This document shows, piece by piece, positions 5,812 to 61,756 of a DNA stretch of 64,000 bases. Below the pieces are notes generated by a model, which was not told the origin of the DNA, did no database searches, and saw only the letters and a program-made list of their open reading frames with translations. Source of the DNA: Seonamhaeicola aphaedonensis (GTDB taxonomy: Bacteria > Bacteroidota > Bacteroidia > Flavobacteriales > Flavobacteriaceae); contig NZ_QRDX01000002.1 in NCBI RefSeq assembly GCF_003386195.1, forward strand, positions 341,675 to 405,674, given 5' to 3'. How positions within the stretch are numbered: position 1 is the first letter of the stretch; each line of letters begins with the position of its first letter. Made by a program: the position numbers and the translations under genes.

Positions 5812-6924
5812 CTAATTAGAAATTGTTTTTAAAGCATCTATCAGAGGGATTTTTTTTCCATCCTTAAAAGCTACTACAAAGCAAGATTTATAGCCTTTTT
5901 TTTTGGCTTCTTCTTCTAATTGTTTTGTGGCTTCGTAATTTGAGGTATTACCATAGAAGTATTTAAACAAACTTCCTTCTCTAATTGATGAAATATTATT
6001 TAAACCTTTAAAGTTATAGGGTTTCGTTTCTAATTCTTTAGAACTAGCCGCTATTTGAACCTTAAATTCAATACTCTTTGAAGGTGGTTCCGTAGTGGTA
6101 TCTTCAACAAAAACAACATCATTGGTGTTCACATTTAAATACTGAAGATACTTTTCAATAGCGTTAAACAAGGATTTAGTCATTAATTCTTTACCTCGTT
6201 TTGAGTTTAAGAAATCTTCTTCCTTTTTATGCGTTAAAAATCCAAGTTCTACTAGTACACTGGGCATATATGTGTAAGCTAGTACATAAAAAATATTCTG
6301 TTTAACCCCTCTACTTTTCCGCTTTGCAGTAACCTGAAATTCATCTTCAATATATCTTGCAAGTTTAATACTGTGATCTAAATATGCCTCTTGTGCAATC
6401 ATAAGCCCAAGAACAGATTCTGGAGAGTCCGGATTAAAATCTTTATAAACTTCGGTATCGTCTTCTAAAGCAATTACACTATTCTCTCTTTTTGCTACTT
6501 CCAAATTTTGTTTGTTCTTTGTAGTACCCAAAACATATGTTTCAGAACCATAGGCAGTACCTGTTTTTCCAGGTTGGGCATTACAGTGAATGGAGATAAA
6601 TAAATCGACATCTTTTTTATTTGCTAAAACGGTTCTACCATTTAAAGTAGGGTAAATATCATTACTCCTTGTGTAAACCACATTAACCGCTGGTATTTTT
6701 TGTTGAATCATTTTTCCTAAGGCCAATGAAACATCAAGTGCAATGTCTTTCTCTGTAGTTTTATATCTTCCAGTACCCGGAGTTCCTGAATCTTTTCCCC
6801 CATGACCTGGATCAATCATGATAACAAAATTATTTGATACTTGAGCATTAGCAGTTGTGTTATAGGAGAGTGTTAATACTATTATAATAGATACGAAAAG
6901 TGATAATCTGTACGTTTGCATCAT
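5812..6924 (-). CDS. N-acetylmuramoyl-L-alanine amidase with C-terminal SPOR-like region
   Basis: Cleaves the amide bond between muramic acid and the stem peptide of peptidoglycan, so it acts in the periplasm in cell separation. A signal peptide covers about the first 28 residues. The Amidase_3 domain follows: zinc ligand in IDPGHGGKD, glutamate in TTEKDIALD, histidine in ISIHCNA, and the catalytic glutamate in VLVELGFLTH. The last 80 residues begin F-K-V-Q-I-A-A and resemble a SPOR domain, which binds denuded glycan at the septum. The gene is divergent from lptD and heads the MlaD/Fe-S run, with 51 bases to the next gene. Confidence 0.9.
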   Translation of the reverse strand: MMQTYRLSLFVSIIIVLTLSYNTTANAQVSNNFVIMIDPGHGGKDSGTPGTGRYKTTEKDIALDVSLALGKMIQQKIPAVNVVYTRSNDIYPTLNGRTVLANKKDVDLFISIHCNAQPGKTGTAYGSETYVLGTTKNKQNLEVAKRENSVIALEDDTEVYKDFNPDSPESVLGLMIAQEAYLDHSIKLARYIEDEFQVTAKRKSRGVKQNIFYVLAYTYMPSVLVELGFLTHKKEEDFLNSKRGKELMTKSLFNAIEKYLQYLNVNTNDVVFVEDTTTEPPSKSIEFKVQIAASSKELETKPYNFKGLNNISSIREGSLFKYFYGNTSNYEATKQLEEEAKKKGYKSCFVVAFKDGKKIPLIDALKTISN

Positions 6925-7015
6925 TGTTATTAACGTCTAAAAAATGGGGTTATTACTTAGCATTTTTGATGTTTATTTTATTTTAAAATTTAAACCAAAC
7001 ACCGAAAAATATATG

Positions 7016-7023
7016 TAATTTTG
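7016..7023 (+). promoter_or_regulatory. -7 promoter element of lptD
   Basis: TAATTTTG matches the Bacteroidota -7 consensus TAnnTTTG, and lies 48 bases before the lptD start. No clear TTTG -33 element is visible 19-20 bases upstream. Confidence 0.45.
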
Positions 7024-7070
7024 GCTTTTCAAAAATCGAGCCATACTTTTACAAAAATACATTAAAAGCG

Positions 7071-9797
7071 TTGCACAGAAACAACTTTAAAATACTTTTT
7101 GCTCTAAGTTTTACAGTGTTTATTAACACGTTTGGCTTTAGCCAAGACATCCCAAAAAAAGGAAAACCTATAAAGGCTGTTGAAGATGACAGCTTAGTTG
7201 TTGATATTGCCGTTCCTAATATTGAAGTACCCGTATTGTCTGAGAAAAGTCAGGACTCCACCTTTACAGATTCTATTAAACCAAAAGAATTATTAGAATA
7301 CACTGTTAAATATTCTGCCACAGATTACACAAAATTTAATCATAAAAATCAAAAGTTATATCTCTATAACAATGCTAGAATAGATTATGGAGATATGAAT
7401 ATAACTGCTGGAAGCATTACCATTGATTACAACACCAATATGGTTTATGCAAAAGGGATTACAGATACTGTTTCAGGATATACACAAAAACCAGTATTTA
7501 CTCAAGGCACTAATGTTGTAGAACCAGACTCCATTATCTTTAATACAGACTCAAAAAAAGCACTCATATACAATTCTGTAACTGAACAGGGTGAGGGGAC
7601 CGTTATAGCTAGCCTAACCAAAAAAGAAAACGACTCCGTATACTTTATAAAAAATGCAAAATATACTACCGCTACAGATCTTGATGATCCTGATTATTAC
7701 ATAAGACTTTTAAAAGCTAAAATTGTTCCTGGAAAAAAAATTGTAACTGGAGCTGCAGGAATGTATATTTATGATGTTCCTACCCCTATTTGGTTACCAT
7801 TTAGCTTTTTTCCTCAAAGTGAAAAACACACTTCTGGTGTTTTAATACCCACCTTTGGCGAACAAAACGACCGGGGTTACTTTTTACAAAATGGTGGCTA
7901 TTATTTTGCAATCAATGACTATGTTGATTTGGCTGTTCTTGGTGATTATTATACAAATGGCAGCTATGGTTTGAGGTTAGAAAGTACTTATGCCAAAAGA
8001 TATAGATTTAGGGGCAATTTAGCATTTAGATTTGAAAACTTAATCTCTAGTGAACGGGGTTTCCCAGATTATTCAAAAAGTACTATTTACAACCTACGGT
8101 GGTCTCACAGTCAAGATTCTAAGGCAAATCCTAATTCAAGGTTTTCTGCCTCTGTTAACTTAGGTAGTAGTACGTATTACAGAAACTCGCTTAATCAGAT
8201 TAACGCGGGTAGTAACTTTTTAACCAATACTTTAAATTCATCGGTTTCATATTCTAAGACCTTCCAGGGAGAGCCTCAGGTAAATTATAGTGTAACTGCT
8301 ACACATACACAAAATACACAATCACAATCTGTTAGTATGACACTTCCAACATTTCAAGGAAGCATCGGTAGAATGTATCCGTTTGCATCAAAAACAGGTA
8401 CAAAAAAGGGAATTATTAAAAATGTGAATTTACAATACAATTTAAGAGGGGAAAATAGAATTCAAACAACAGATTCTCTCTTCTTTAAAAAAGAAATGTT
8501 TGATGATGCTAGAGCTGGGTTTCAACATACTATACCACTAACCACAAACTTTAAAGTATTTAAACATTTTAGTGTTAGTGCAGGTACAAATTATAATGAA
8601 GTCTGGTCATTTAATACTATTAAAAAGACATATGATTATTCTACTAGAGAAACTATTACCGAAGATATTAACGGATTTGATTCTTTTAGAACTTACAACT
8701 TTAGCACTAGTATAGGTACAACAGTTTACGGCATGTTTAATTTTGAAAAAGAAGGAAAAGATCCTAAATTAATGGCCATTAGGCATGTCATGAGACCTTC
8801 TGTAAGCTATAATATAAACCCAGCCTTTGATAAATACTATGAAAGCGCCGAAGTTATTAATGCAGACGGATTAACGCAAGGTGAACTAGATGCTATACAA
8901 AGTTCTAATAATTTGGAGTATTCTAGATTTGAAGGCTCTATTTTTGGGTCGCCTGGTAGGGACTTTTCAAGTTCTATGGGTATTTCTATTGCTAATAATC
9001 TAGAGGCTAAAATAAAAGATAAAGACACAACCAAAACAGAACCAAAAAAGATTAAACTTTTAAACTCTTTAAACTTTTCTAGTTCCTATAATTTTGCTGC
9101 AGATTCATTGAAATGGAGTCCTGTTAGAGTTAATGGAAGCACCCAGCTTTTTAATAACCAAATGAGTATTAACTTTGGCGCCACTTTAGATCCTTATGCC
9201 CTAGACAATAACAATGCTAGAATTAATAAATTTAACATAGATAATGGCGGTAGCCTATTTAGGCTAACCACTGCTAATCTTACTGCTAGTTGGTCTTTGT
9301 CTAATAAAGATAAAGGTAAAAAGAAAGACACCGATAATGTGGCTAGTGATAATCCTGAAGATGTCCTACCAAAAAATATAGATTATGCTAATCAGCAAAT
9401 AGGTAGAGATGAAGATGAAAATGGGGATAATGAAAATGAAGAAGGTGTAAATTTTTACAATCATAAAATTCCATGGAATTTACGTTTAGCATATGCTATT
9501 AACTACTCTAATAGTAGAAGACAAAACGAAATATCATCCCATTCCCTAATGTTTTCTGGTGATATTGATTTAACCACTAAATGGAGTGTTGGAGCCTCAT
9601 CTGGTTACGACATAAAAAATCAAGGTTTTACTTATACACAACTGCGATTTTCACGAGATTTATTAAGTTGGAAAATGGATTTTAGTTGGATACCATTTAG
9701 TGAAAGAACTTCATGGAATTTCTTTATTGGTATTAAATCAAGTATTTTGCAAGACTTGAAGTACGAAAAACGTAGACAACCCGATCAAAGGTTGTAA
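7071..9797 (+). CDS. lptD: LPS-assembly protein LptD
   Basis: Outer-membrane barrel that inserts lipopolysaccharide into the outer leaflet. The start is a TTG: no in-frame ATG lies between the promoter element and here, and the reading from TTG gives a good signal peptide (FALSFTVFINTFGFSQ). Residues 85-250 form the LptA/OstA-like periplasmic jellyroll (YLYNNARIDYGDMNI and repeats). The remaining 650 residues show the alternating aromatic pattern of a large beta barrel, ending near the C-terminus with FNFFIGIKSS-type strands. At 908 residues it is normal for Bacteroidota LptD. An acidic, asparagine-rich low-complexity loop lies at about 780-790. ridA follows after 17 bases. Confidence 0.9.
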   Translation: MHRNNFKILFALSFTVFINTFGFSQDIPKKGKPIKAVEDDSLVVDIAVPNIEVPVLSEKSQDSTFTDSIKPKELLEYTVKYSATDYTKFNHKNQKLYLYNNARIDYGDMNITAGSITIDYNTNMVYAKGITDTVSGYTQKPVFTQGTNVVEPDSIIFNTDSKKALIYNSVTEQGEGTVIASLTKKENDSVYFIKNAKYTTATDLDDPDYYIRLLKAKIVPGKKIVTGAAGMYIYDVPTPIWLPFSFFPQSEKHTSGVLIPTFGEQNDRGYFLQNGGYYFAINDYVDLAVLGDYYTNGSYGLRLESTYAKRYRFRGNLAFRFENLISSERGFPDYSKSTIYNLRWSHSQDSKANPNSRFSASVNLGSSTYYRNSLNQINAGSNFLTNTLNSSVSYSKTFQGEPQVNYSVTATHTQNTQSQSVSMTLPTFQGSIGRMYPFASKTGTKKGIIKNVNLQYNLRGENRIQTTDSLFFKKEMFDDARAGFQHTIPLTTNFKVFKHFSVSAGTNYNEVWSFNTIKKTYDYSTRETITEDINGFDSFRTYNFSTSIGTTVYGMFNFEKEGKDPKLMAIRHVMRPSVSYNINPAFDKYYESAEVINADGLTQGELDAIQSSNNLEYSRFEGSIFGSPGRDFSSSMGISIANNLEAKIKDKDTTKTEPKKIKLLNSLNFSSSYNFAADSLKWSPVRVNGSTQLFNNQMSINFGATLDPYALDNNNARINKFNIDNGGSLFRLTTANLTASWSLSNKDKGKKKDTDNVASDNPEDVLPKNIDYANQQIGRDEDENGDNENEEGVNFYNHKIPWNLRLAYAINYSNSRRQNEISSHSLMFSGDIDLTTKWSVGASSGYDIKNQGFTYTQLRFSRDLLSWKMDFSWIPFSERTSWNFFIGIKSSILQDLKYEKRRQPDQRL

Positions 9798-51983: not shown

Positions 51984-52478
51984 ATGAAACAACTAATAAT
52001 AGTATTATTTTGTCTAGGCTTCTATTCCCCTTATTCTAGCCAGGCTCAAAATGAAGATTTTACAATTACTGTATTGAAATCTAACGTAAAAGAAAAAACT
52101 TATATTTTTGGTGAATGGAACCCTAGTGGTTATGAATCAGAGACCCATTTAAAATATTTAGGAGAAATTAAAACTAGTGATACCACTACATATAAGATAA
52201 TGACTTCTAGTCGGTATTGGGGACCAACCAAAAAAGTCACAAATAAAATTTTAGTCTTTGATAGAAACAACAATCTTCATGGAAATTATTATTTAAACAC
52301 CAAGTGTGAATTACCCTCTCAAATACAAGATAATCAACTTATTTTTAAACCAGTAGAATGTACTAACTGTAGTTATGCTATTACCAAAGTAGATTTTTAT
52401 AATGGTATTCCTGAAAATTTTTATTTAGGATGTAAACCGGGACTCGGTAGTCTTTACTCCTTTTATTTGAGTATTTAG
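51984..52478 (+). CDS. Exported protein of unknown function
   Basis: 164 residues with a signal peptide (LIIVLFCLGFYSPYSSQAQ). The mature part has no membrane segment. It contains C-T-N-C near the C-terminus and an L-Y-S-F-Y-L-S-I end, with beta-strand alternation throughout. I do not recognise a family. It stands alone, between the RluA gene and the remnant of guaC, in a part of the window with long gaps; it may belong to the accessory block that includes the amidoligase operon. Confidence 0.6.
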   Translation: MKQLIIVLFCLGFYSPYSSQAQNEDFTITVLKSNVKEKTYIFGEWNPSGYESETHLKYLGEIKTSDTTTYKIMTSSRYWGPTKKVTNKILVFDRNNNLHGNYYLNTKCELPSQIQDNQLIFKPVECTNCSYAITKVDFYNGIPENFYLGCKPGLGSLYSFYLSI

Positions 52479-52783: not shown

Positions 52784-55700
52784 ATGGCATTAAAAATTGT
52801 TATTTCGCATAAAACAAAATACAAATACGATAGACTTGTTTCTCTATCTCCTCATATATTTAGATTAAGACCTGCACCCCATAGCAGAACCCCTATTGAA
52901 GCGTACTCAATAAAAATAAAGCCAGAAAATCATTTTTTTAATTGGCAACAAGACCCTTTTGGTAATTATTTAGCACGATTAACATTTCCTGAAAAAACCA
53001 AAGAGCTTAGTATTGATGTTGAAATTATAGCTGATTTAAAAACCATAAATCCGTTTGATTTTTTTGTTGAAAAGTATGCAGAAGATTATCCGTTTCAGTA
53101 CGTAGATACTGTAAAGAAAGAACTACTGCCTTATTTAGAAATAACAGATAATGGTCCGTTGCTAAATGAGTTTCTAAAAACTATTGATCTTTCTCCAAGA
53201 AAGACAATTTTTTTCCTGATTGACATTAATCGAAAAATAAACGAATTCTTAAATTATAGTATTCGTTTAGATCCAGGCGTTCAAACCTGTGAAGAAACAC
53301 TACATTCTAAAGTTGGTTCTTGTAGGGATTATGCTTGGTTGTTTGTTCAGGTTATGAGGCATTTAGGTTTTGGAGCAAGATTCGTTTCTGGGTATTTGGT
53401 GCAATTAAAATCTGATGAAAAATCATTAGATGGTCCGTCCGGTCCTGAAGAAGATTTTACCGATTTACATGCTTGGGCAGAAGTTTACGTTCCTGGAGCT
53501 GGTTGGATAGGTTTCGATGCTACCTCTGGGCTTTTGGCTGGTGAAGGTCATATTCCTTTGGCCTGCACACCATCTTTTGAGAGTGCTGCTCCTGTTAAGG
53601 GAATGACTGATATTTGCGAAACAGAATTCTTCTATGAAAATACGGTAAAACGCATTTTTGAATCTCCCAGAGTTACAAAACCTTATACCGAAGAACAGTG
53701 GAACGCCATTTATAATCTCGGGTTTAAAGTTGATGAAGAATTAGAAAAAGGTGATGTTAGATTAACCATGGGAGGTGAACCCACGTTTGTTTCTATTGAT
53801 GATATGGAATCTGCTCAATGGAATACAGATGCCGATGGCCCCCACAAACGAGAGTTAGCAAAAAACCTTTCAGCCCGATTATATGATGAATTTGGAAAAG
53901 GTGGGGTTTTACATCAAGCACAAGGCAAATGGTACCCCGGTGAACCGCTACCCCGTTGGTCTATTGAGATTTGTTGGCGAAAAGACGGTAAACCTATATG
54001 GCAAAACAAAAAACTACTATCCCTTTTTTCAGAATCCAAAAAATTACCAAAAGATGCCGATAAAAAATTTCTTAAAACATTAACCAAATATTTAGGTGTT
54101 TCAGAAAAGTATATAAAACCCACCTACGAAGATAGTTTTTACTTTTTGTGGCAAGAAGGTCAAATGCCAATTGATATTGACCCCACAAAAGAAGATGGTA
54201 ACCTATTGGTAAAAGAAAAACTTCAAAATATTTTAAAAGAAGGAACTACAAAACCTGTAGGGTACGTTTTACCACTCAACAATTCTAAAGGCACATGGTA
54301 TAGTTGTGATTGGACATTTAGAAGGAAACATTTGTTTCTATTACCTGGTAACTCACCTGTTGGTTTACGGTTACCATTAAATTCATTAATTCAAAAGCCG
54401 AAACAGAAAGAATTTCCCATTTATCAACCAGACCAATTTTCTAAACAAGACGAATTACCAACCTATTTTGAAACAGTAGCAAAACGTTATACAAAACAAA
54501 ATAAATCTTCAAAAATTGAGTATTTTATTCGTACGGCCTTGTGTATTGAAATTAGGGACGAAAAACTATACATCTTTTTGCCTCCTTTAGATGCTATTGA
54601 ATATTATTTAGACTTAGTAACCGCTATTGAAGCTACTTCAAAAGTCTTGGATATTCCAGTTGTTTTTGAAGGCTATAACCCACCATTTGATAACCGCTTG
54701 GAATCACTAAAAATAACACCAGATCCCGGTGTTATTGAAGTTAACGTTCAACCATCGAAAAACTGGAGTGAATTAACATATAATACGCTCACACTCTATA
54801 AACACGCAAAGTTATCGCGCTTGGGCACCGAAAAATTTATGATAGATGGGAAGCATACTGGGACGGGTGGTGGAAATCATGTAACCTTGGGCGGTATAAC
54901 TCCTGCAGATAGTCCGCTACTTAGAAAACCAAGTTTGTTAAGAAGTTTATTAACCTTTTGGCAACATCACCCAGGATTATCATACTTATTTTCGGGAGCA
55001 TTTATTGGAGCCACAAGTCAGGCACCACGTATCGATGAGGCACGTATGGAAAACCTTTACGAACTAGAAATTGCCTTTAGTAAAATTCCTAAAAATGGCG
55101 AAGTCCCTTTTTGGTTAACAGATAGATTATTTAGACACCTTTTAACCGACTTAACAGGTAACACACATCGTGCAGAATTCTGTATAGACAAATTATATTC
55201 ACCAGACACAGCCTCAGGGCGTTTAGGTATTTTAGAATTAAGAGCTTTTGACATGCCTCCCCATGCTCAAATGAGTTTAATGCAAAATCTATTAGTACGC
55301 ACGCTTGTTGCTTGGTTTTGGAAAAAACCTTATGAACACGATTTAGTTCGTTGGGGTACAGAATTACATGATAAGTTTCTAATTGAACACTTTGTTAGAA
55401 AAGATATAAATGATGTTGTGAAAAAACTTAACAAAGCTGGATACGCTTTTAAAGAAGATTGGTTTAATCCATTTTTTGAATTTAGATTTCCCCTGCATGG
55501 TATGGTTACTATAAACGATATTCATATTGAATTGCGGGCTGCTATAGAACCTTGGAATGTTTTAGGCGAAGAAATGAGTGGTGGTGGTACCGCTAGATAT
55601 GTAGATTCGTCTTTGGAACGAATTCAAATTAAAGTTACTAATTTTACCAATGAAAGATATGTTATTACTTGTAACGGTGTAAGAGTACCTTTAAAACCAA

Positions 55701-56101
55701 CCGATGTCAAAGGTGAATTTGTTGCTGGTATTCGTTATAAAGCTTGGAACCCTTATTCTGCTTTGCACCCTACTATAGGTGTAGACGCACCTTTAGTTTT
55801 TGATGTTGTAGACACTTGGAATAAGCGCTCTATTGGCGGGTGTACTTACTTTGTAGCACATCCGGGAGGACGTTCATATGAGTCCTTTCCTATTAATAGT
55901 TTAGAGGCCGAATCTAGAAGAATAAATCGTTTTTGGAATTTTAACCATACTCAAGGCGATATTGTTGATGATAAAAAAGATATAATAAGTAGAGAGGAAT
56001 TTAAAAAGATTAAAAAACAAATTAATCCTAAACAGTTTAAATACAAAGAATTGAAGATTAATAACGAATTTCCTGTTACTTTAGATTTAAGAAAGAAGTA
56101 A
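52784..56101 (+). CDS. Transglutaminase-like protease fused to a DUF2126 amidoligase domain
   Basis: 1105 residues in two parts. Residues 1-290 are a bacterial transglutaminase-like unit: an N-terminal beta domain, then the papain-like core with catalytic C180 (VGSCRDYAWLF), H229 (DLHAWAEV) and D245 (GFDATSG). Residues from about 322 on are DUF2126, starting DVRLTMGGEPTFVS, with the GTGGGNHVTLGG motif near 690 and LGILELRAFDMPP near 818. DUF2126 has been predicted (Iyer and Aravind) to be a glutamine-synthetase-like COOH-NH2 ligase. First gene of a three-gene operon; the next starts 9 bases on. No signal peptide, so cytosolic. Confidence 0.88.
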   Translation: MALKIVISHKTKYKYDRLVSLSPHIFRLRPAPHSRTPIEAYSIKIKPENHFFNWQQDPFGNYLARLTFPEKTKELSIDVEIIADLKTINPFDFFVEKYAEDYPFQYVDTVKKELLPYLEITDNGPLLNEFLKTIDLSPRKTIFFLIDINRKINEFLNYSIRLDPGVQTCEETLHSKVGSCRDYAWLFVQVMRHLGFGARFVSGYLVQLKSDEKSLDGPSGPEEDFTDLHAWAEVYVPGAGWIGFDATSGLLAGEGHIPLACTPSFESAAPVKGMTDICETEFFYENTVKRIFESPRVTKPYTEEQWNAIYNLGFKVDEELEKGDVRLTMGGEPTFVSIDDMESAQWNTDADGPHKRELAKNLSARLYDEFGKGGVLHQAQGKWYPGEPLPRWSIEICWRKDGKPIWQNKKLLSLFSESKKLPKDADKKFLKTLTKYLGVSEKYIKPTYEDSFYFLWQEGQMPIDIDPTKEDGNLLVKEKLQNILKEGTTKPVGYVLPLNNSKGTWYSCDWTFRRKHLFLLPGNSPVGLRLPLNSLIQKPKQKEFPIYQPDQFSKQDELPTYFETVAKRYTKQNKSSKIEYFIRTALCIEIRDEKLYIFLPPLDAIEYYLDLVTAIEATSKVLDIPVVFEGYNPPFDNRLESLKITPDPGVIEVNVQPSKNWSELTYNTLTLYKHAKLSRLGTEKFMIDGKHTGTGGGNHVTLGGITPADSPLLRKPSLLRSLLTFWQHHPGLSYLFSGAFIGATSQAPRIDEARMENLYELEIAFSKIPKNGEVPFWLTDRLFRHLLTDLTGNTHRAEFCIDKLYSPDTASGRLGILELRAFDMPPHAQMSLMQNLLVRTLVAWFWKKPYEHDLVRWGTELHDKFLIEHFVRKDINDVVKKLNKAGYAFKEDWFNPFFEFRFPLHGMVTINDIHIELRAAIEPWNVLGEEMSGGGTARYVDSSLERIQIKVTNFTNERYVITCNGVRVPLKPTDVKGEFVAGIRYKAWNPYSALHPTIGVDAPLVFDVVDTWNKRSIGGCTYFVAHPGGRSYESFPINSLEAESRRINRFWNFNHTQGDIVDDKKDIISREEFKKIKKQINPKQFKYKELKINNEFPVTLDLRKK

Positions 56102-56110
56102 ACAATACCC

Positions 56111-58660
56111 ATGCATTCCAACATACTATTTCAAAACTATTTCTCCGATTTCAAAGACTACGATGAAGTTTTGAAATCTGATTTATCTATTAATCCTAAT
56201 TGGGAAACATTACTTAATAATCTAACTCAATACGGAAACGAGGGATTAACTGATAAACAAAACGAAATTAATTGGCTTTTAGAAGAAAATGGAGTTACAT
56301 ACAATGTATATAACGACCCGAAAGGAATGCAACGCTCATGGCGATTAAACATTGTGCCCTTTTTAATTCATCAAAATGAATGGGTAACCATTGAACGTGG
56401 TATCACCCAAAGAGCTGAATTATTAAACCTTATTTTAAAAGATATTTACGGTAAGCGTGAGCTTATTAATAATGGCATTGTTCCTCCAGAAGTTATTTAT
56501 GGCCATAGAGGATTTTTAAGACAGTGTGACCAAATTCACTACAAAACTGCAAAACAATTAATAATATATGCTGCTGATTTAGCACGTGGACCCGACGGAC
56601 GCATGTGGGTTGTTAACGACAGAACACAGGCTCCTTCTGGCATGGGATATGCCTTAGAAAACAGATACTCTTTGAGTAGAATGATGCCCAATCTGTTTAA
56701 GGATATCAATGTTAAACAACCAACCCAATTCTTTTCTGAGTTTAATCAGATGTTAATTGATGCGGCGCCAAATAATATTACAAACCCTAACATAGTTATT
56801 TTAACACCGGGCCCTTTAAACGAAACTTATTTTGACCACGCCTATATGGCATCTTTCTTGGGATATCCGTTAGTTACAGGCAATGACCTTGTGGTTAGAA
56901 ACGGAAAAGTATGGATGAAAACCCTGAAAGCTCTTAAACAAGTTGATGTTATTCTAAAACGTGTTGATGATGCCTTTATGGATCCCCTAGAGTTAAGAGA
57001 AGATTCATATTTAGGAGTTGCAGGTTTACTAGAAGTAGTAAGAAACAATCAAGTTACCATTGTTAATCCTATTGGTGCTGGCGTTCTTGAAAACTCTGGC
57101 TTAATACCTTTTATGAATGGTATTTGCAATTATTTCTTCAACGAAGACTTAATATTACCACAAATTGCTTCGTGGTGGTGCGGACAAGAAAGAGAACGCA
57201 GCTATGTTCTCAATAATATGCGAGAATTTGTAATTAAAAATATTGACCGTTCAAACAGAGAATACCTTCATTTTTGTGAATTTTTAGATGATGCATCTCT
57301 GAATCTATTAAAAGATGAAATACTGCTAAATCCATATAAGTTTGTGGCACAAGAAAAAATTTCGTTTTCAACAGCACCGGATTTTTTCAATGGTACTTTA
57401 GAGCCTAGAAAAGTTATGTGTAGAACATTTGCTATTGCAAATAACAATAATTACACTGTAATGCCAGGTGGTTTGGTGAGAGTAGCCGCAGAAAGGGAAA
57501 ACCTGTTTGTATCCAACCAACGGGGTGGTATAAGTAAAGATTTTTGGATTATCTCAGATGAGTTTCAATACAATATTCAGAGCTATTCTTGGAATGATAA
57601 CAGTAGAATATCGGTCTTAGACGTTAATGATTTACCAAGTAATACAGCCGAAAACCTGTATTGGTCTGGAAGGTATTTAGGTAGAGCTCTCACAACTGCT
57701 CGTTATTTGCGTATGGTTTTAAACCGAATGAATAACGAACAATATAACAACCAAAATGCAGAATCTAGAAGTTTAGTTTATCTATATAAATCTGTAACTA
57801 ATATTACCTCGACATTTCCTGGATTTGTGGGTAAAAATTCGGAAAAAAAGTTACAAGAACCCATAGAGGAGATTTTGTCTTTGCTGTTAGATGAAAACCG
57901 AATTGGTAGTTTTGCCCAGACTCTTTCTAGTTTTAATCATGCCTACTATTCTCTACGTAACTTATGGTCTAGAGATATGTGGCGTGTATTTGATAGTATC
58001 AAAAAATTATGGAATAAATTTAAAGAGAACGAAACTCGTTCTATCCCAGATCTCACAAAATTATTAGATCGTGTTATAACTAGACTCATAGCGTTTATGG
58101 GGCTTATTGAAGAAAGTATACTAGTAAGTCAAGGGCTTTTACTGTATTTTATTGGTTTACAAACCGAACAAGCTATGATGCATATTGCTAAATTAAGAGC
58201 GCTACTAGTTTTTAATTACTCTGAACAATTGCAGTATGAAATTCTAGAATCATTTTTAACAAGTCATGAAAGTCTAAATATTTACAGGTATAGTTATCGC
58301 TCTTATTTAAGTGTTGAAAACGTCATTAGGTTAGTTATGCTTGATGCAGAATATGCTAAATCGCTCACGTATCAATTTAAACGTATTCAAAAGGATATAC
58401 AAAAGCTTCCTCACTCTGAAAATTCAGTAAATAACTTCTATAGTTTATATATTTCTGAGGCTATAAAAATTATAGAAAACCTAGATATTACTAATTTACT
58501 CGAGTTAAATGAAACAAAAACTTTACGTCAAAATCTTGACGAGGTTTTATCTGAACTTAGCAATTTATTACACAAAAGTAGTATTTCGCTTTCTGATACT
58601 TATTTTAATCATGCTTACCAACAAAAACAATTGGTTAATCAAAACTTTCCATTGCTTTAA
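56111..58660 (+). CDS. Circularly permuted ATP-grasp fused to an alpha-E domain
   Basis: 849 residues in two parts, each usually seen as a separate protein. Residues ~70-490 are a circularly permuted ATP-grasp type 2 (DUF404/DUF407), with KDIYGKRELI, the GHRGFLRQC loop, VNDRTQAPSGMGYALENR and the NPIGAGVLENSGLIPFMN signature. Residues ~505-849 are an alpha-E domain (DUF403), starting LPSNTAENLYWSGRYLGRA. ATP-grasp enzymes of this type are predicted to form peptide or amide bonds by an acyl-phosphate. It is directly joined to the next gene (TAA then ATG), so co-translation is likely. Fusion order matches mycobacterial Rv2567-like proteins. Confidence 0.88.
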   Translation: MHSNILFQNYFSDFKDYDEVLKSDLSINPNWETLLNNLTQYGNEGLTDKQNEINWLLEENGVTYNVYNDPKGMQRSWRLNIVPFLIHQNEWVTIERGITQRAELLNLILKDIYGKRELINNGIVPPEVIYGHRGFLRQCDQIHYKTAKQLIIYAADLARGPDGRMWVVNDRTQAPSGMGYALENRYSLSRMMPNLFKDINVKQPTQFFSEFNQMLIDAAPNNITNPNIVILTPGPLNETYFDHAYMASFLGYPLVTGNDLVVRNGKVWMKTLKALKQVDVILKRVDDAFMDPLELREDSYLGVAGLLEVVRNNQVTIVNPIGAGVLENSGLIPFMNGICNYFFNEDLILPQIASWWCGQERERSYVLNNMREFVIKNIDRSNREYLHFCEFLDDASLNLLKDEILLNPYKFVAQEKISFSTAPDFFNGTLEPRKVMCRTFAIANNNNYTVMPGGLVRVAAERENLFVSNQRGGISKDFWIISDEFQYNIQSYSWNDNSRISVLDVNDLPSNTAENLYWSGRYLGRALTTARYLRMVLNRMNNEQYNNQNAESRSLVYLYKSVTNITSTFPGFVGKNSEKKLQEPIEEILSLLLDENRIGSFAQTLSSFNHAYYSLRNLWSRDMWRVFDSIKKLWNKFKENETRSIPDLTKLLDRVITRLIAFMGLIEESILVSQGLLLYFIGLQTEQAMMHIAKLRALLVFNYSEQLQYEILESFLTSHESLNIYRYSYRSYLSVENVIRLVMLDAEYAKSLTYQFKRIQKDIQKLPHSENSVNNFYSLYISEAIKIIENLDITNLLELNETKTLRQNLDEVLSELSNLLHKSSISLSDTYFNHAYQQKQLVNQNFPLL

Positions 58661-59551
58661 ATGATTTATCAAGTTTTACATACTACTACCTACAACTACG
58701 AGCATGGTGTATCATTTTGTCATAACATAGCTACTCTTAAACCTAAAGAAGTTGCGGGACAAACGTTATTAGATTATCATTTAGATATTACGCCCATTCC
58801 AGAAGAAATTTCTGAGAAGATTGATTTTTTTGGAAATACTGTCACAAGATTTTCTATTCAAAAACAACATTCGAAATTAAAGGTAACTGCCAGTAGTAAA
58901 ATTTTAAAAGAAGTTCATAATATTCCAAGTATTCACAACAATACTGATGCCCAAAAAATTACGTTACAACAAGCTTTGTTGGAATTAAAAAACAATTCTC
59001 CTGAAATACGTTATGTAAAACAATTTTGTTTAGAATCTGTTTTAGTGGCTAATATTACATCGAATATTAAAGCTTATGCTGAAGTTTCATTTCAATCAAA
59101 TAGATCAATTTTTGAAGCGGCGTTTGAGTTAATGCAGCGTATTTATACCGATTTTGAATTTAATGCGGAGGTTACAAATGTAGCCACACCTATTCATGAA
59201 GTCATGAATCTAAAAAAGGGGGTCTGTCAAGATTTTGCCCAAATAGCTATTGCCTGTGTGCGTTCTGTTGGTTTACCTGCTCGCTATGTTAGTGGTTATA
59301 TAGAAACCATACCACCTCCTGGTAAAGAAAAACTTATTGGAACAGATGCTTCTCATGCTTGGTTTTCAATATTCATCCCTTATTTTGGATGGGTAGATTT
59401 TGACCCCACAAATAACCAAATACCTTCAAATCAACACATAATAGTATCTCACGGAAGAGATTATTACGATGTTCCTCCACTAAAAGGTGTTATTTACAGC
59501 ACGGGAAAAAATAAAATGAAAGTATCCGTAGATATTAGACCCATAGAATAA
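58661..59551 (+). CDS. Transglutaminase-like cysteine protease
   Basis: 296 residues with no signal peptide. A bacterial transglutaminase N-terminal beta domain (about 1-80) precedes a papain-like core with the triad C189 (KKGVCQDFAQI), H232 (SHAWFSIF) and D248 (WVDFDPTNN). It starts immediately after the stop of the ATP-grasp gene. Proteins of this sort cleave, rather than cross-link, peptides in most bacteria; here it could release, hydrolyse or transfer the product of the two ligases. It is the second transglutaminase-like unit of the operon, with the same fold but low similarity to the first. Confidence 0.9.
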   Translation: MIYQVLHTTTYNYEHGVSFCHNIATLKPKEVAGQTLLDYHLDITPIPEEISEKIDFFGNTVTRFSIQKQHSKLKVTASSKILKEVHNIPSIHNNTDAQKITLQQALLELKNNSPEIRYVKQFCLESVLVANITSNIKAYAEVSFQSNRSIFEAAFELMQRIYTDFEFNAEVTNVATPIHEVMNLKKGVCQDFAQIAIACVRSVGLPARYVSGYIETIPPPGKEKLIGTDASHAWFSIFIPYFGWVDFDPTNNQIPSNQHIIVSHGRDYYDVPPLKGVIYSTGKNKMKVSVDIRPIE

Positions 59552-59597: not shown

Positions 59598-61706
59598 CTA
59601 ATTTAAAGAGAATGCCACAATCTTATTTCCAATAGGAGTTCCAAGTTTTTCTCCACCGCAGGCTATAGCTATGTATTGCTTTCCATTAACCTGATACATA
59701 GCCGGGGTGGCAAAAGCAGGAGCAGGTAATTGGTACTCCCATAGTAAGGCTCCCGTAAACTTGTTAAACGCCCTGAAATAACCATCTTTTGTTGCGCCAA
59801 TAAACAGTAAACCGTTTTCTGTGACTATAGGGCCACCATAATTCTCGCATCCTGTTTGTGGGTATCCTTGTTCTTTTAATTCTGGTGTATCCCCTAAAAT
59901 AATTGACCATTTAAAATCACCCGTATTTAAGTCTATAGCGTGCATAGTCCCCCAAGGTGGTGAAATAGCAGGCCTTCCCTTGCTATCTAAAAAGCGTTTG
60001 TAACCCATATATTTATAAGCTAAAGGATACGTAATTTTTGGATTCTTGGGCAAAATGGTATCTGGTTCATCAAACAAAAAATGCATTAAAGCTTCCTTTT
60101 CTTTAGGTGGGATTTGAGGAAAACCGGTCATCATACCCTTTCCTAATTTTATTAATTGAGCTACCTCATTTTTAGATTTTTTACTTTTTAAGTCTATTAA
60201 AGAAGGAAAACCGCTTTGAACCACACCACTTCTATCTTTTTGATGACAGGTCACACAATACTGCATATAGGTTTGCTTACCTAAAGGGTAGTTTTTTACC
60301 CTGGTATCATTCTTTTCCATTTGAATAACCCAAGGTGCTTCTTGAGAGTTTATATAAACAATCCCCTCTTCGGGGTCTGCAGCAGTTCCACCCCACTCTG
60401 CAGCACCATCCAACCCAGGAAACAAAATCATGGGATCTAAACTTGGTGGTGCATACAGTCTTTTGTCAGAGTGCTTTAAAAGCTCTAAAAAGGCTTCTCT
60501 ATTTTCGGCATACGGACTTATATCATCATCGTTTAGTTCCGTTGATTGTCTTGCAAATGGTTTTGGCTTTACCGGAATGGGTTGTGTTTTTGAGGCTTCC
60601 TCTCCAACCAAAGTTGAAATTGGTACGGGCACCTCGTTAATATCAAATAAAGGCTCTCCAGTAATGCGATTAAACACATAAACATAACCTTGCTTTGTAG
60701 ACTGAGAAACCGCAGGTATTTTTTTACCATTTCTTGTAATGGTAATTAAATTTGGTGGTGTTGGTGGGTCTCTGTCCCATAAGTCATGGTACACCATTTG
60801 AAAATGCCAAAGCCGCTTCCCTGTATTAACATCAAGAGCCAAAAGGCAATCAGTATATAAATTATCTCCTTTACGAATACCGCCATAGAAATCTGGAGCA
60901 GCGGAACCAGTTGGGATGTAAATGATACCACGTTCTTCATCTAAAGCCATTCCACTCCAATTATTACCTGCTCCAATTAATGGATTTGTATGAGAATTTC
61001 GGTCTTCCCAAGTTTCAATACCTTCTTCTTCTGACAATGGAATCGTATTGAAAGTCCATTCTAAATCACCTGTGATAACATTAAACGCCATAATATTTCC
61101 AGGAAGTGCTCCAATGTCTTCAGGAACTCGAATAGGCATGACAATAATATCTTTGTAAACGGTACCCGGCGTATTGGATACTAGAAAACTTCCCATAGCA
61201 ATTTCACCTAAACCACTACTTAAGTTTACTTTTCCCTTATCTCCAAAGCTCTTGATAGACTCTCCTGTTAATGCATTAAGAGCGTATAAATACGGCCCTG
61301 AAGTATATAATATGCGTTTGTCATTGCCTTTCTCCCAATAGGCAACCCCTCTACTGGTTGAAGCCCTTAATTTTAATGAGTCTCCAAATCTCCAAATTTC
61401 CTTTCCTGTTGATGCATGAATAGCTATGGCTCTGAGTCTAGAAGTAACCCCGTACAAAATAGTATCAATGATAATGGGGTTCATTTGCATTTGCCCAAAA
61501 TCTGGCGACTCATAGATCCAAGCTACCTTCAATTCGGTAACATTATCTAATGTGATTTCTGATAAAGTAGAATACTGATTTCTATCTGGTCCACCTTGAT
61601 AAGATCTCCAAGTGGAATAATCTCTAGGTTTAAAACTAGAATTTTGTTGACAGTTAAAAACAAGAAGGAAAGCTAAAAAGTTAACCAGATAAAGAGCGCT
61701 ACGCAT
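59598..61706 (-). CDS. PQQ-binding-like quinoprotein dehydrogenase with cytochrome c motif, lipoprotein
   Basis: From ATG 61706 the protein has 702 residues, with a lipobox ending at C19 (LLVFNC). The 61751 start would put non-signal sequence in front. The repeated W-motifs of an eight-bladed beta-propeller (DLEWTFNT, GKRLWHFQMVYHDLWDRD, GALLWEYQLPAPA) match PQQ-dependent glucose/alcohol dehydrogenases. A CVTCH haem c site starts at C484 inside a cytochrome c-like insertion (about 470-555). The DLWD-D-P-P segment is typical of glucose dehydrogenase-type active sites. It is periplasmic and probably feeds electrons to the respiratory chain; the substrate is not clear. Confidence 0.87.
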   Translation of the reverse strand: MRSALYLVNFLAFLLVFNCQQNSSFKPRDYSTWRSYQGGPDRNQYSTLSEITLDNVTELKVAWIYESPDFGQMQMNPIIIDTILYGVTSRLRAIAIHASTGKEIWRFGDSLKLRASTSRGVAYWEKGNDKRILYTSGPYLYALNALTGESIKSFGDKGKVNLSSGLGEIAMGSFLVSNTPGTVYKDIIVMPIRVPEDIGALPGNIMAFNVITGDLEWTFNTIPLSEEEGIETWEDRNSHTNPLIGAGNNWSGMALDEERGIIYIPTGSAAPDFYGGIRKGDNLYTDCLLALDVNTGKRLWHFQMVYHDLWDRDPPTPPNLITITRNGKKIPAVSQSTKQGYVYVFNRITGEPLFDINEVPVPISTLVGEEASKTQPIPVKPKPFARQSTELNDDDISPYAENREAFLELLKHSDKRLYAPPSLDPMILFPGLDGAAEWGGTAADPEEGIVYINSQEAPWVIQMEKNDTRVKNYPLGKQTYMQYCVTCHQKDRSGVVQSGFPSLIDLKSKKSKNEVAQLIKLGKGMMTGFPQIPPKEKEALMHFLFDEPDTILPKNPKITYPLAYKYMGYKRFLDSKGRPAISPPWGTMHAIDLNTGDFKWSIILGDTPELKEQGYPQTGCENYGGPIVTENGLLFIGATKDGYFRAFNKFTGALLWEYQLPAPAFATPAMYQVNGKQYIAIACGGEKLGTPIGNKIVAFSLN

Positions 61707-61756
61707 AAGTTGGTTTTCAAGTATTTTATGTTCTAAATATAATGAATCCAAAACTT

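Follow-up and report, generated by a model that had tools for sequence, protein, structure and literature searches.

The DNA described here, a window of 64,000 nucleotides from the genome of Seonamhaeicola aphaedonensis (Flavobacteriaceae; contig NZ_QRDX01000002.1, positions 341,675 to 405,674), carries a three-gene operon built from the protein families of a predicted bacterial amidoligase system. Gene 1 (52784..56101, plus strand) encodes a protein of 1105 amino acids in which a transglutaminase-like (TGase) domain is fused to DUF2126, gene 2 (56111..58660, plus strand) encodes a circularly permuted ATP-grasp domain fused to an Alpha-E domain (849 amino acids; a predicted pseudo-ligase), and gene 3 (58661..59551, plus strand) encodes a stand-alone TGase-like protein of 296 amino acids. 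The open reading frames (ORFs), their common strand and the gaps between them, 9 bases between genes 1 and 2 and 0 bases between genes 2 and 3, are as described in an earlier note on this DNA, and the families and domain borders named there are borne out by Pfam profile searches of all three proteins. Gene 1 matches Bact_transglu_N (PF08379), Transglut_core (PF01841) and DUF2126 (PF09899), the last over its full length (profile positions 1-826 of 826; 1283.9 bits, cut-off 27). Gene 2 matches CP_ATPgrasp_2 (PF14403) at residues 83-459 with 483.9 bits, the other circularly permuted ATP-grasp profile (PF04174) with 335.4 bits, and Alpha-E (PF04168) at residues 508-832 with 170.6 bits, while gene 3 matches Bact_transglu_N (PF08379) and Transglut_core (PF01841). 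No NCBIfam model matched the operon proteins.

Iyer et al. reportedly predicted, in 2009, an amidoligase system of ATP-grasp, Alpha-E, TGase, Anbu and a glutamine-synthetase-like ligase; the operon is a normal member of this known system, and the DUF2126 domain of gene 1 is presumably its circularly permuted, glutamine-synthetase-like amidoligase. A profile search of the source genome (3.5 Mb in 41 contigs, 99.99% complete according to its record) found gene 1 as the sole DUF2126 match. What the analysis contributes most usefully is that one of the two supposed ligases of the operon seems to be dead in all copies that were read, and that the genome encodes, at another place, a ligase that appears live.

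Catalytic sites of the three proteins

The earlier note had counted two amide-bond-forming enzymes in the operon and had stated that all visible catalytic residues are present, although it listed none for the ATP-grasp domain of gene 2. Intact relatives of this domain share a motif E-D-N-x-R-x-P-S-G, whose E and N are presumably, by analogy with glutathionylspermidine synthetase, metal ligands, and a glycine loop K-x-x-x-x-[SA]-G-G-Y-G. In gene 2 the first reads N169-D170-R171-T-Q-A-P-S-G177 (56615..56641, plus strand), and in the second (residues 376-386, from K376; 57236..57268, plus strand) the lysine is kept and the Gly-Gly pair is lost. Both elements are present in the unfused ATP-grasp protein that the same genome encodes in a second operon (operon B), and also in the putative glutathionylspermidine synthase of Methylobacillus flagellatus (PDB 3n6x), in which LEDNLRTPSG stands at the place of VNDRTQAPSG of gene 2, and GSGGYG at the loop from which gene 2 has lost the Gly-Gly pair. 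The latter protein has the same fold as gene 2, with which it aligns over residues 15-483, and differs from it, in addition, in having no Alpha-E domain.

The difference between fused and unfused ATP-grasps is uniform. The glutamate, the asparagine (E215 and N217 in operon B numbering) and the Gly-Gly pair were found in 66 of 66 unfused proteins, whereas among 66 fused ones the glutamate occurs once and the other two never. Twelve further ATP-grasps, taken from plasmid stretches and from loci missed by ORF calling, follow the same rule (6 unfused with the full set, 6 fused without it), which brings the complete E-x-N and Gly-Gly set to 72/72 unfused and 0/72 fused copies; the record titles of the plasmid stretches name Actinomycetota, Acidobacteriota, Alphaproteobacteria, Burkholderia and an Enterobacter plasmid. 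The counts of 66 come from an alignment that at first held 65 long and 67 short rows, ATP-grasp ORFs of 440 amino acids or less being left out, and that became 66 + 66 when a row of 586 amino acids (locus L145), a fused protein cut by the end of its contig, was moved from the short to the fused rows. The other 25 ATP-grasp stretches outside the alignment, mostly Alpha-E halves, do not span the E-x-N site. The count of two ligases in one operon is thus not supported: loss of catalytic residues in an alignment, which the earlier note had named as a refutation, is seen in gene 2 and in the other 71 fused copies read.

In a tree of the 66 + 66 proteins, fused and unfused ATP-grasps are separated at one branch that has support 100, with 1 change where shuffling gave 44.6; the tree was made by a quick method with a midpoint root, and long branches and uneven letter make-up were flagged among the fused rows. 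Judged from the alignment, the residue loss is selective: of 90 columns that are nearly invariant (at least 98%) in the unfused proteins, 35 are retained in at least 90% of the fused ones and 26 in 20% of them or fewer. Some positions of the ATP-grasp half are conserved particularly in the fused proteins (R171 in 60/66, G179 in 66/66, E327 in 64/66, W356 in 65/66), and these proteins therefore appear to be under selection. The Alpha-E half is altered as well. Although that of gene 2 scores 170.6 bits, its first ER motif reads GR and its second EQ, and a comparison of 17 fused with 23 separate Alpha-E domains showed that E87 and N88 are gone in all 17 fused ones, that E17, the glutamate of the first ER motif, is lost in 11 and R164 in 12.

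A structural model of gene 2 (predicted local distance difference test score, pLDDT, 83.3; 27 sequences) points to an ATP-grasp fold that is retained, as its best PDB match is 3n6x (E 2.3e-31; template modelling score 0.85 by target), followed by glutathione synthetases. The Foldseek matches within the glutathione synthetase and glutathionylspermidine synthetase superfamily range from E 3.9e-10 to 3.5e-4 at approximately 9 to 13% identity, a superfamily from which gene 2 is set apart by this low identity and by the absence of conserved positions of its own family. A profile of the intact ATP-grasps, compared with the PDB sequences, matched 3n6x alone. At rank 21 of the fold search with the gene 2 model stands 9cjn, "Ligase Cp1B", released in 2025.

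Taken together, these observations make it very likely, on the evidence of the alignments, that the fused protein lacks canonical ATP-grasp ligase activity. Since the conserved residues of the ATP and metal sites are absent in every copy read, the fused ATP-grasp probably serves as a helper without catalysing a reaction itself. Literature searches for inactive ATP-grasp proteins returned no statement that the fused protein is dead; an earlier mention by Iyer et al. in 2009 is possible.

The remaining sites are intact, and for these the statement of the earlier note stands. The TGase triad of gene 1, located by alignment on the plus strand (C180 at 53321-53323, H229 at 53468-53470 and D245 at 53516-53518, spanning 53321..53518), is unchanged in 98 of 98 other DUF2126 proteins. 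In the GTGGGNHVT motif of DUF2126 (residues 693-701; 54860..54886, plus strand, also by alignment), G693, G695-697, N698 and H699 are the same in all 98, T694 is nearly invariant and T701 invariant (11-row alignment of DUF2126), and V700 is variable; E332, T334, E652, N654, E818 and R820 are likewise identical in 98/98. Among these, E332, H699 and E818-x-R820 are residues that we take to be of the glutamine synthetase type. The triad of gene 3 (C189 at 59225-59227, H232 at 59354-59356 and D248 at 59402-59404; plus strand, by alignment) was compared with 84 other small TGases, in which C189 and H232 are found in 83 and D248 in 84. DUF2126 ORFs of 1000 amino acids or less and TGases outside 250-350 amino acids were left out of these counts. 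The one small TGase that departs from the triad is that of operon B in genome G014 (locus L117, 7182-8036), which has lost both the cysteine and the histidine. Other small TGases of about 280 amino acids, distantly like gene 3, adjoin genes of the system at L106 (6756-7598), L109 (15025-15867), L127 (2544-3389) and L132 (3531-4373), and the one at L127 stands beside Anbu.

The model of gene 1 (pLDDT 73.8; 29 sequences) matches the TGase-like protease 3isr (Foldseek E 2.2e-11) and, more weakly, glutamine synthetases (best E 2.7e-3, probability 1.00, approximately 270 to 290 columns). The likeness to glutamine synthetase consists of these weak fold matches, and the DUF2126 protein differs from that enzyme by its TGase fusion.

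The second operon and the five-part set

Outside the window, on contig C1 of the source genome, the second operon (L007, 7971-11458) encodes an unfused ATP-grasp, an Alpha-E protein and a TGase. It lies downstream of the gene for S-adenosylmethionine synthetase and resembles an Anbu operon from which Anbu is missing.

The presence of the intact ATP-grasp follows that of DUF2126 in the genomes sampled. Within the family (120 genomes), DUF2126 occurs in 9, all of which have both the fused and the unfused ATP-grasp, and an ATP-grasp of any kind occurs in 23. Within the phylum (296 genomes), DUF2126 occurs in 12, with the unfused ATP-grasp in 12/12 and the fused one in 9/12, and among the matches listed there was none with an open frame of fused length in any genome without DUF2126. 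As the two samples share the source genome, they amount to 20 distinct genomes with DUF2126, the unfused ATP-grasp being present in 20/20 and the fused one in 17/20. The hypergeometric values, which ignore kinship, are 8e-8 (23/120) and 2e-5 (121/296 genomes having an over-cut-off match of either kind).

A wide set of loci was compared as well, the best 80 of at least 592 confirmed relatives; nearer kin are over-represented in it because the best matches were taken. ORF calling followed a simple rule, the longest frame, and missed genes in some loci (L165, L202, L207, L210, L215); the counts of order, neighbours and residues rest on called ORFs; missed ATP-grasps recovered by tblastn fit the pattern. 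Where DUF2126 has 7 kb or more of flanking sequence in each direction, which holds for 56 of the wide loci, the fused protein is encoded in 39, the unfused ATP-grasp in 32, a TGase in 40 and Anbu in 12, and neither kind of ATP-grasp in 6. A further 23 genomes were searched, belonging to a part of those loci among the 80 on which no unfused gene lies, and in 21 of them the fused and the unfused ATP-grasp both show clear open frames. In several phyla the five parts form one operon, and the full order ATP-grasp, Alpha-E, TGase-DUF2126, fused protein, TGase is seen, for example, in Marinomonas (L177), Desulforhopalus (L185), a member of the Planctomycetaceae (L206) and an Enterobacter plasmid. The last of these, a plasmid of Enterobacter roggenkampii from a blood isolate (L216, 3153-12344), carries the complete five-gene set, with arsC on the upstream side and a transposase of the IS26 family some 5 kb downstream.

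The three genes of the window do not look self-contained, since they are accompanied by an intact ATP-grasp. The idea of a self-contained three-gene pathway was rejected, the fused ligase being without its site and the intact partner being encoded elsewhere. That there is a five-part module, consisting of the intact ATP-grasp, Alpha-E, TGase-DUF2126, the fused protein and a TGase, can be held with considerable confidence.

Anbu, the proteasome-like peptidase whose absence from the window had been pointed out in the earlier note, is also missing from the genome as far as profiles can tell: a genome-wide search gave no match to PF00227 and none to an Anbu profile built for this analysis. That profile matched 2 of the 120 family genomes, both among the 23 with an ATP-grasp. 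In G103 Anbu lies between the Alpha-E and TGase genes of the ATP-grasp operon, and in G110 it lies beside a TGase, on a contig other than that of the ATP-grasp operon. No Anbu was found in the 16 Flavobacteriaceae loci of the three-gene operon (operon A) that were compared, and the 14 loci with Anbu near DUF2126 include none from Flavobacteriaceae.

The nearest known system is the amidoligase/Anbu system reportedly described by Iyer et al. (2009) and cited in three later articles (PMC6376114; PMC5666114; PMC3597751). It has the same families and the same style of operon, and operon B of the source genome is like its Anbu operon minus Anbu. The genome described here differs in that no Anbu was found in it, in that the parts are spread over two operons, and in that the fused ATP-grasp is predicted to be inactive. 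The uniform pseudo-ligase and the nested co-occurrence are probably new.

Possible working and competing explanations

On the basis of these observations, the following working can be proposed. The intact circularly permuted ATP-grasp of the second operon and the glutamine-synthetase-like DUF2126 would each use ATP to activate a carboxylate for amide bond formation, and in this way an amino acid or a short peptide would be built or attached. The papain-like TGases, that is, the domain fused to DUF2126 and the separate protein, would trim, transfer or recycle that product, and the fused ATP-grasp/Alpha-E protein, a dead paralogue of the intact pair, would act as a docking or regulatory subunit, for instance by holding a substrate or by pairing with the intact enzyme. 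The setting would be nitrogen limitation, which induces relatives in Proteobacteria. On balance it is probable that a conserved bacterial amidoligase/peptidase system of five parts, three of them encoded by the operon, works in this way. In keeping with it, the ATP-grasp of a Yersinia Anbu operon releases phosphate from ATP (PMC6376114). A broader proposal is about as likely as not: that a widespread five-part amide-forming system, nitrogen-responsive at least in Proteobacteria, has as its standard non-catalytic subunit a pseudo-ATP-grasp/pseudo-Alpha-E fusion of single origin from the active pair, retained in approximately 10 phyla (by record titles), that the glutamine-synthetase-like DUF2126 enzyme works with both the active and the dead ATP-grasp paralogues, and that Anbu belongs to the system only optionally.

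Nitrogen limitation is the probable physiological context, for reasons that come from Proteobacteria. In an ntrC mutant of Burkholderia cenocepacia H111, four adjacent genes are listed with values of -8.2 (ATP-grasp), -9.4 (Alpha-E), -9.4 (TGase) and -6.0 (a "large protein containing transglutaminase-like domain") (PMC5491218). Another B. cenocepacia strain encodes, in order, ATP-grasp, Alpha-E, a partial TGase match, TGase-DUF2126, the fused protein and TGase, and because of this order the large protein of H111 is probably TGase-DUF2126. In every Pseudomonas putida strain studied, PP_2686-2688 rise when nitrogen is limiting (PMC7801951), and PP_2685 (proteasome beta subunit) and PP_2688 (circularly permuted ATP-grasp) are higher on nitrate than on ammonium, with log2 values of 4.44 and 3.99 (PMC8050072). 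Marine metagenomes place the TGase, DUF403, DUF404 and DUF407 domains in a cluster with urea metabolism (PMC3597751). Extending this link to the present lineage would rely on those relatives. That the amide product is used in the nitrogen economy is somewhat less likely than not, and a protein tag is unlikely; a peptide tag or a non-ribosomal peptide is possible, although no tag, substrate or conjugate was seen in the analysis. Literature searches that included DUF2126, DUF403/404/407, the COG names and Rv2566-2569c returned no substrate or product and no study of what the system makes, in agreement with the earlier note; the families occur in many bacterial phyla. The literature on RloABC and vesicles was unhelpful and concerns a membrane-bound inactive TGase. 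As the analysis separates the probable ligases from the one that looks dead and identifies the five parts, it shows which proteins to mix and which deletion strains to compare. Retention of a pseudoenzyme across so many phyla would be a good example of how dead paralogues turn into lasting subunits.

Several observations weigh against the proposed working. The fold support for DUF2126 as a glutamine-synthetase-like enzyme is weak, and literature searches turned up no biochemistry of DUF2126 or of the fused protein, nor was citable text found on E-x-N as a metal site. One fused protein of the 66 (L159, 5463-8036) has the E of E-x-N, with H in place of N, and the fused rows mostly keep the loop lysine (57/65), an aspartate (56/65) and an arginine (64/65), because of which some nucleotide binding by the fused protein is possible. 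Tight pairing with the unfused protein is also called into question: the fused protein of the source genome shares 81% identity with that of G049 and the unfused one 51%, so the unfused partner appears exchangeable, and the unfused ATP-grasps of Flavobacteriaceae are scattered over separate parts of the tree. Moreover, three genomes of family f5 have TGase-DUF2126 adjoining an intact pair and no fused gene, two plasmid stretches (Tsukamurella and Sinorhizobium) have the fused protein and TGase with no DUF2126 within 9 kb, and of the 23 further genomes G413 shows the fused protein only and G431 is ambiguous (983 and 865 amino acids). As for nitrogen, the evidence comes from outside Bacteroidota, the Anbu gene of P. 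putida, PP_2685, stands at only 1.12, 4.81 and 1.45, and control by sigma-54 is not plain there, because PP_2686-2688 are also high in the third column, taken to be the rpoN mutant (PMC7801951).

Four other explanations have been weighed against the proposed working. If both ligases of the operon were active, the three genes alone could make a small peptide or a tag, as their order on one strand (18 of 19 Flavobacteriaceae loci measured), the spacing of genes 1 and 2 by 6 to 20 bases (15/19) and the invariant or nearly invariant DUF2126 and TGase sites would allow; this is very improbable given that the E, the N and the Gly-Gly pair are missing from 72/72 fused proteins and that an unfused ATP-grasp accompanies DUF2126 in 20/20 sampled genomes. 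The fused protein might instead be a divergent active enzyme in which other residues, such as D170-R171-T-Q-A-P-S-G177, bind ATP or another activated substrate. Its own strongly conserved signature and its retention across many phyla speak for this, but an arginine replaces a putative metal ligand, the Gly-Gly loop is gone, and at larger distances the fused proteins are less conserved than the unfused ones in 594/637 and 175/213 pairs, although at shorter distances they are not (30/63 and 14/33 pairs). On these grounds a divergent enzyme is decidedly unlikely.

About as unlikely is an Anbu-type system for protein tagging and tag removal, in which the TGases and Anbu would be deconjugating peptidases, according to hypotheses cited in two of the articles (PMC6376114; PMC5666114). 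The 12 Anbu genes near DUF2126 in the 56 well-flanked wide loci and the place of Anbu in the ATP-grasp operon of G103 agree with it, but Anbu is rare in the family and was found neither in the source genome nor in the compared operon-A loci. In vitro, no peptidase activity and no specific complex of Anbu were detected (PMC6376114). Nitrogen scavenging without a peptide tag is doubtful, if less so than tagging: the glutamine-synthetase-like domain would join amines to glutamate or to a different amino acid, and the amide would be cleaved or passed on by the TGases. This would suit the nitrogen-limitation response of Proteobacteria (PMC5491218; PMC7801951; PMC8050072), the metagenomic correlation between urea metabolism and the domains ATP-grasp, Alpha-E and TGase (PMC3597751) and the weak glutamine synthetase matches of the gene 1 model. 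The recurring neighbours identified (Anbu, histidine kinase, metallopeptidase, citrate synthase), however, do not suggest amine use, and the only one that could is an aldehyde dehydrogenase approximately 8 kb away in six loci.

Genes around the operon

The neighbours of the operon have little in common between genomes. When the 11 window neighbours that lie within 10 kb were compared over up to 100 loci, an ATP-binding cassette ATPase recurred in 10, a weakly BadF-like protein in 4 and serine hydroxymethyltransferase in 4, the other 8 being confined to the window. A link to an unrelated neighbouring pathway was rejected on this account; the comparison over many genomes, suggested in the earlier note, found no such pathway that is always alongside. 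Just upstream, at 51984-52478, lies an ORF of 164 amino acids that has no Pfam or NCBIfam match, and at 59598-61751 a pyrroloquinoline quinone (PQQ)-type dehydrogenase with a cytochrome c domain is convergent with the operon; neither has a relative near DUF2126 in the compared loci. A Flavobacterium-type promoter upstream of gene 1 found no support, the window having 5 matches against 5.28 expected, with the one match near the operon on the opposite strand.

Other genes recur near DUF2126 in the compared loci, in clusters named by Pfam from a few representatives: a histidine kinase (6 loci), the aldehyde dehydrogenase already mentioned, the inosine monophosphate (IMP) dehydrogenase family (4 loci) and citrate synthase (4 loci). 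None of these recurring neighbours is widespread. The contig of L141 is titled Helicobacter pylori PMSS1, a title that looks unreliable because the contig is a metagenome bin and its DUF2126 is 63% identical to that of gene 1. A zinc metallopeptidase of the Peptidase_Mx family lies near DUF2126 in five loci (L109, L144, L183, L189 at 6474-7529, and L191; median distance 2.5 kb) and is possibly an extra peptidase of the system. Closer still is a protein of 417 amino acids with no Pfam family (L169, 6656-7909, and L145, L146, L165 and L168), at a median of approximately 100 bases from DUF2126.

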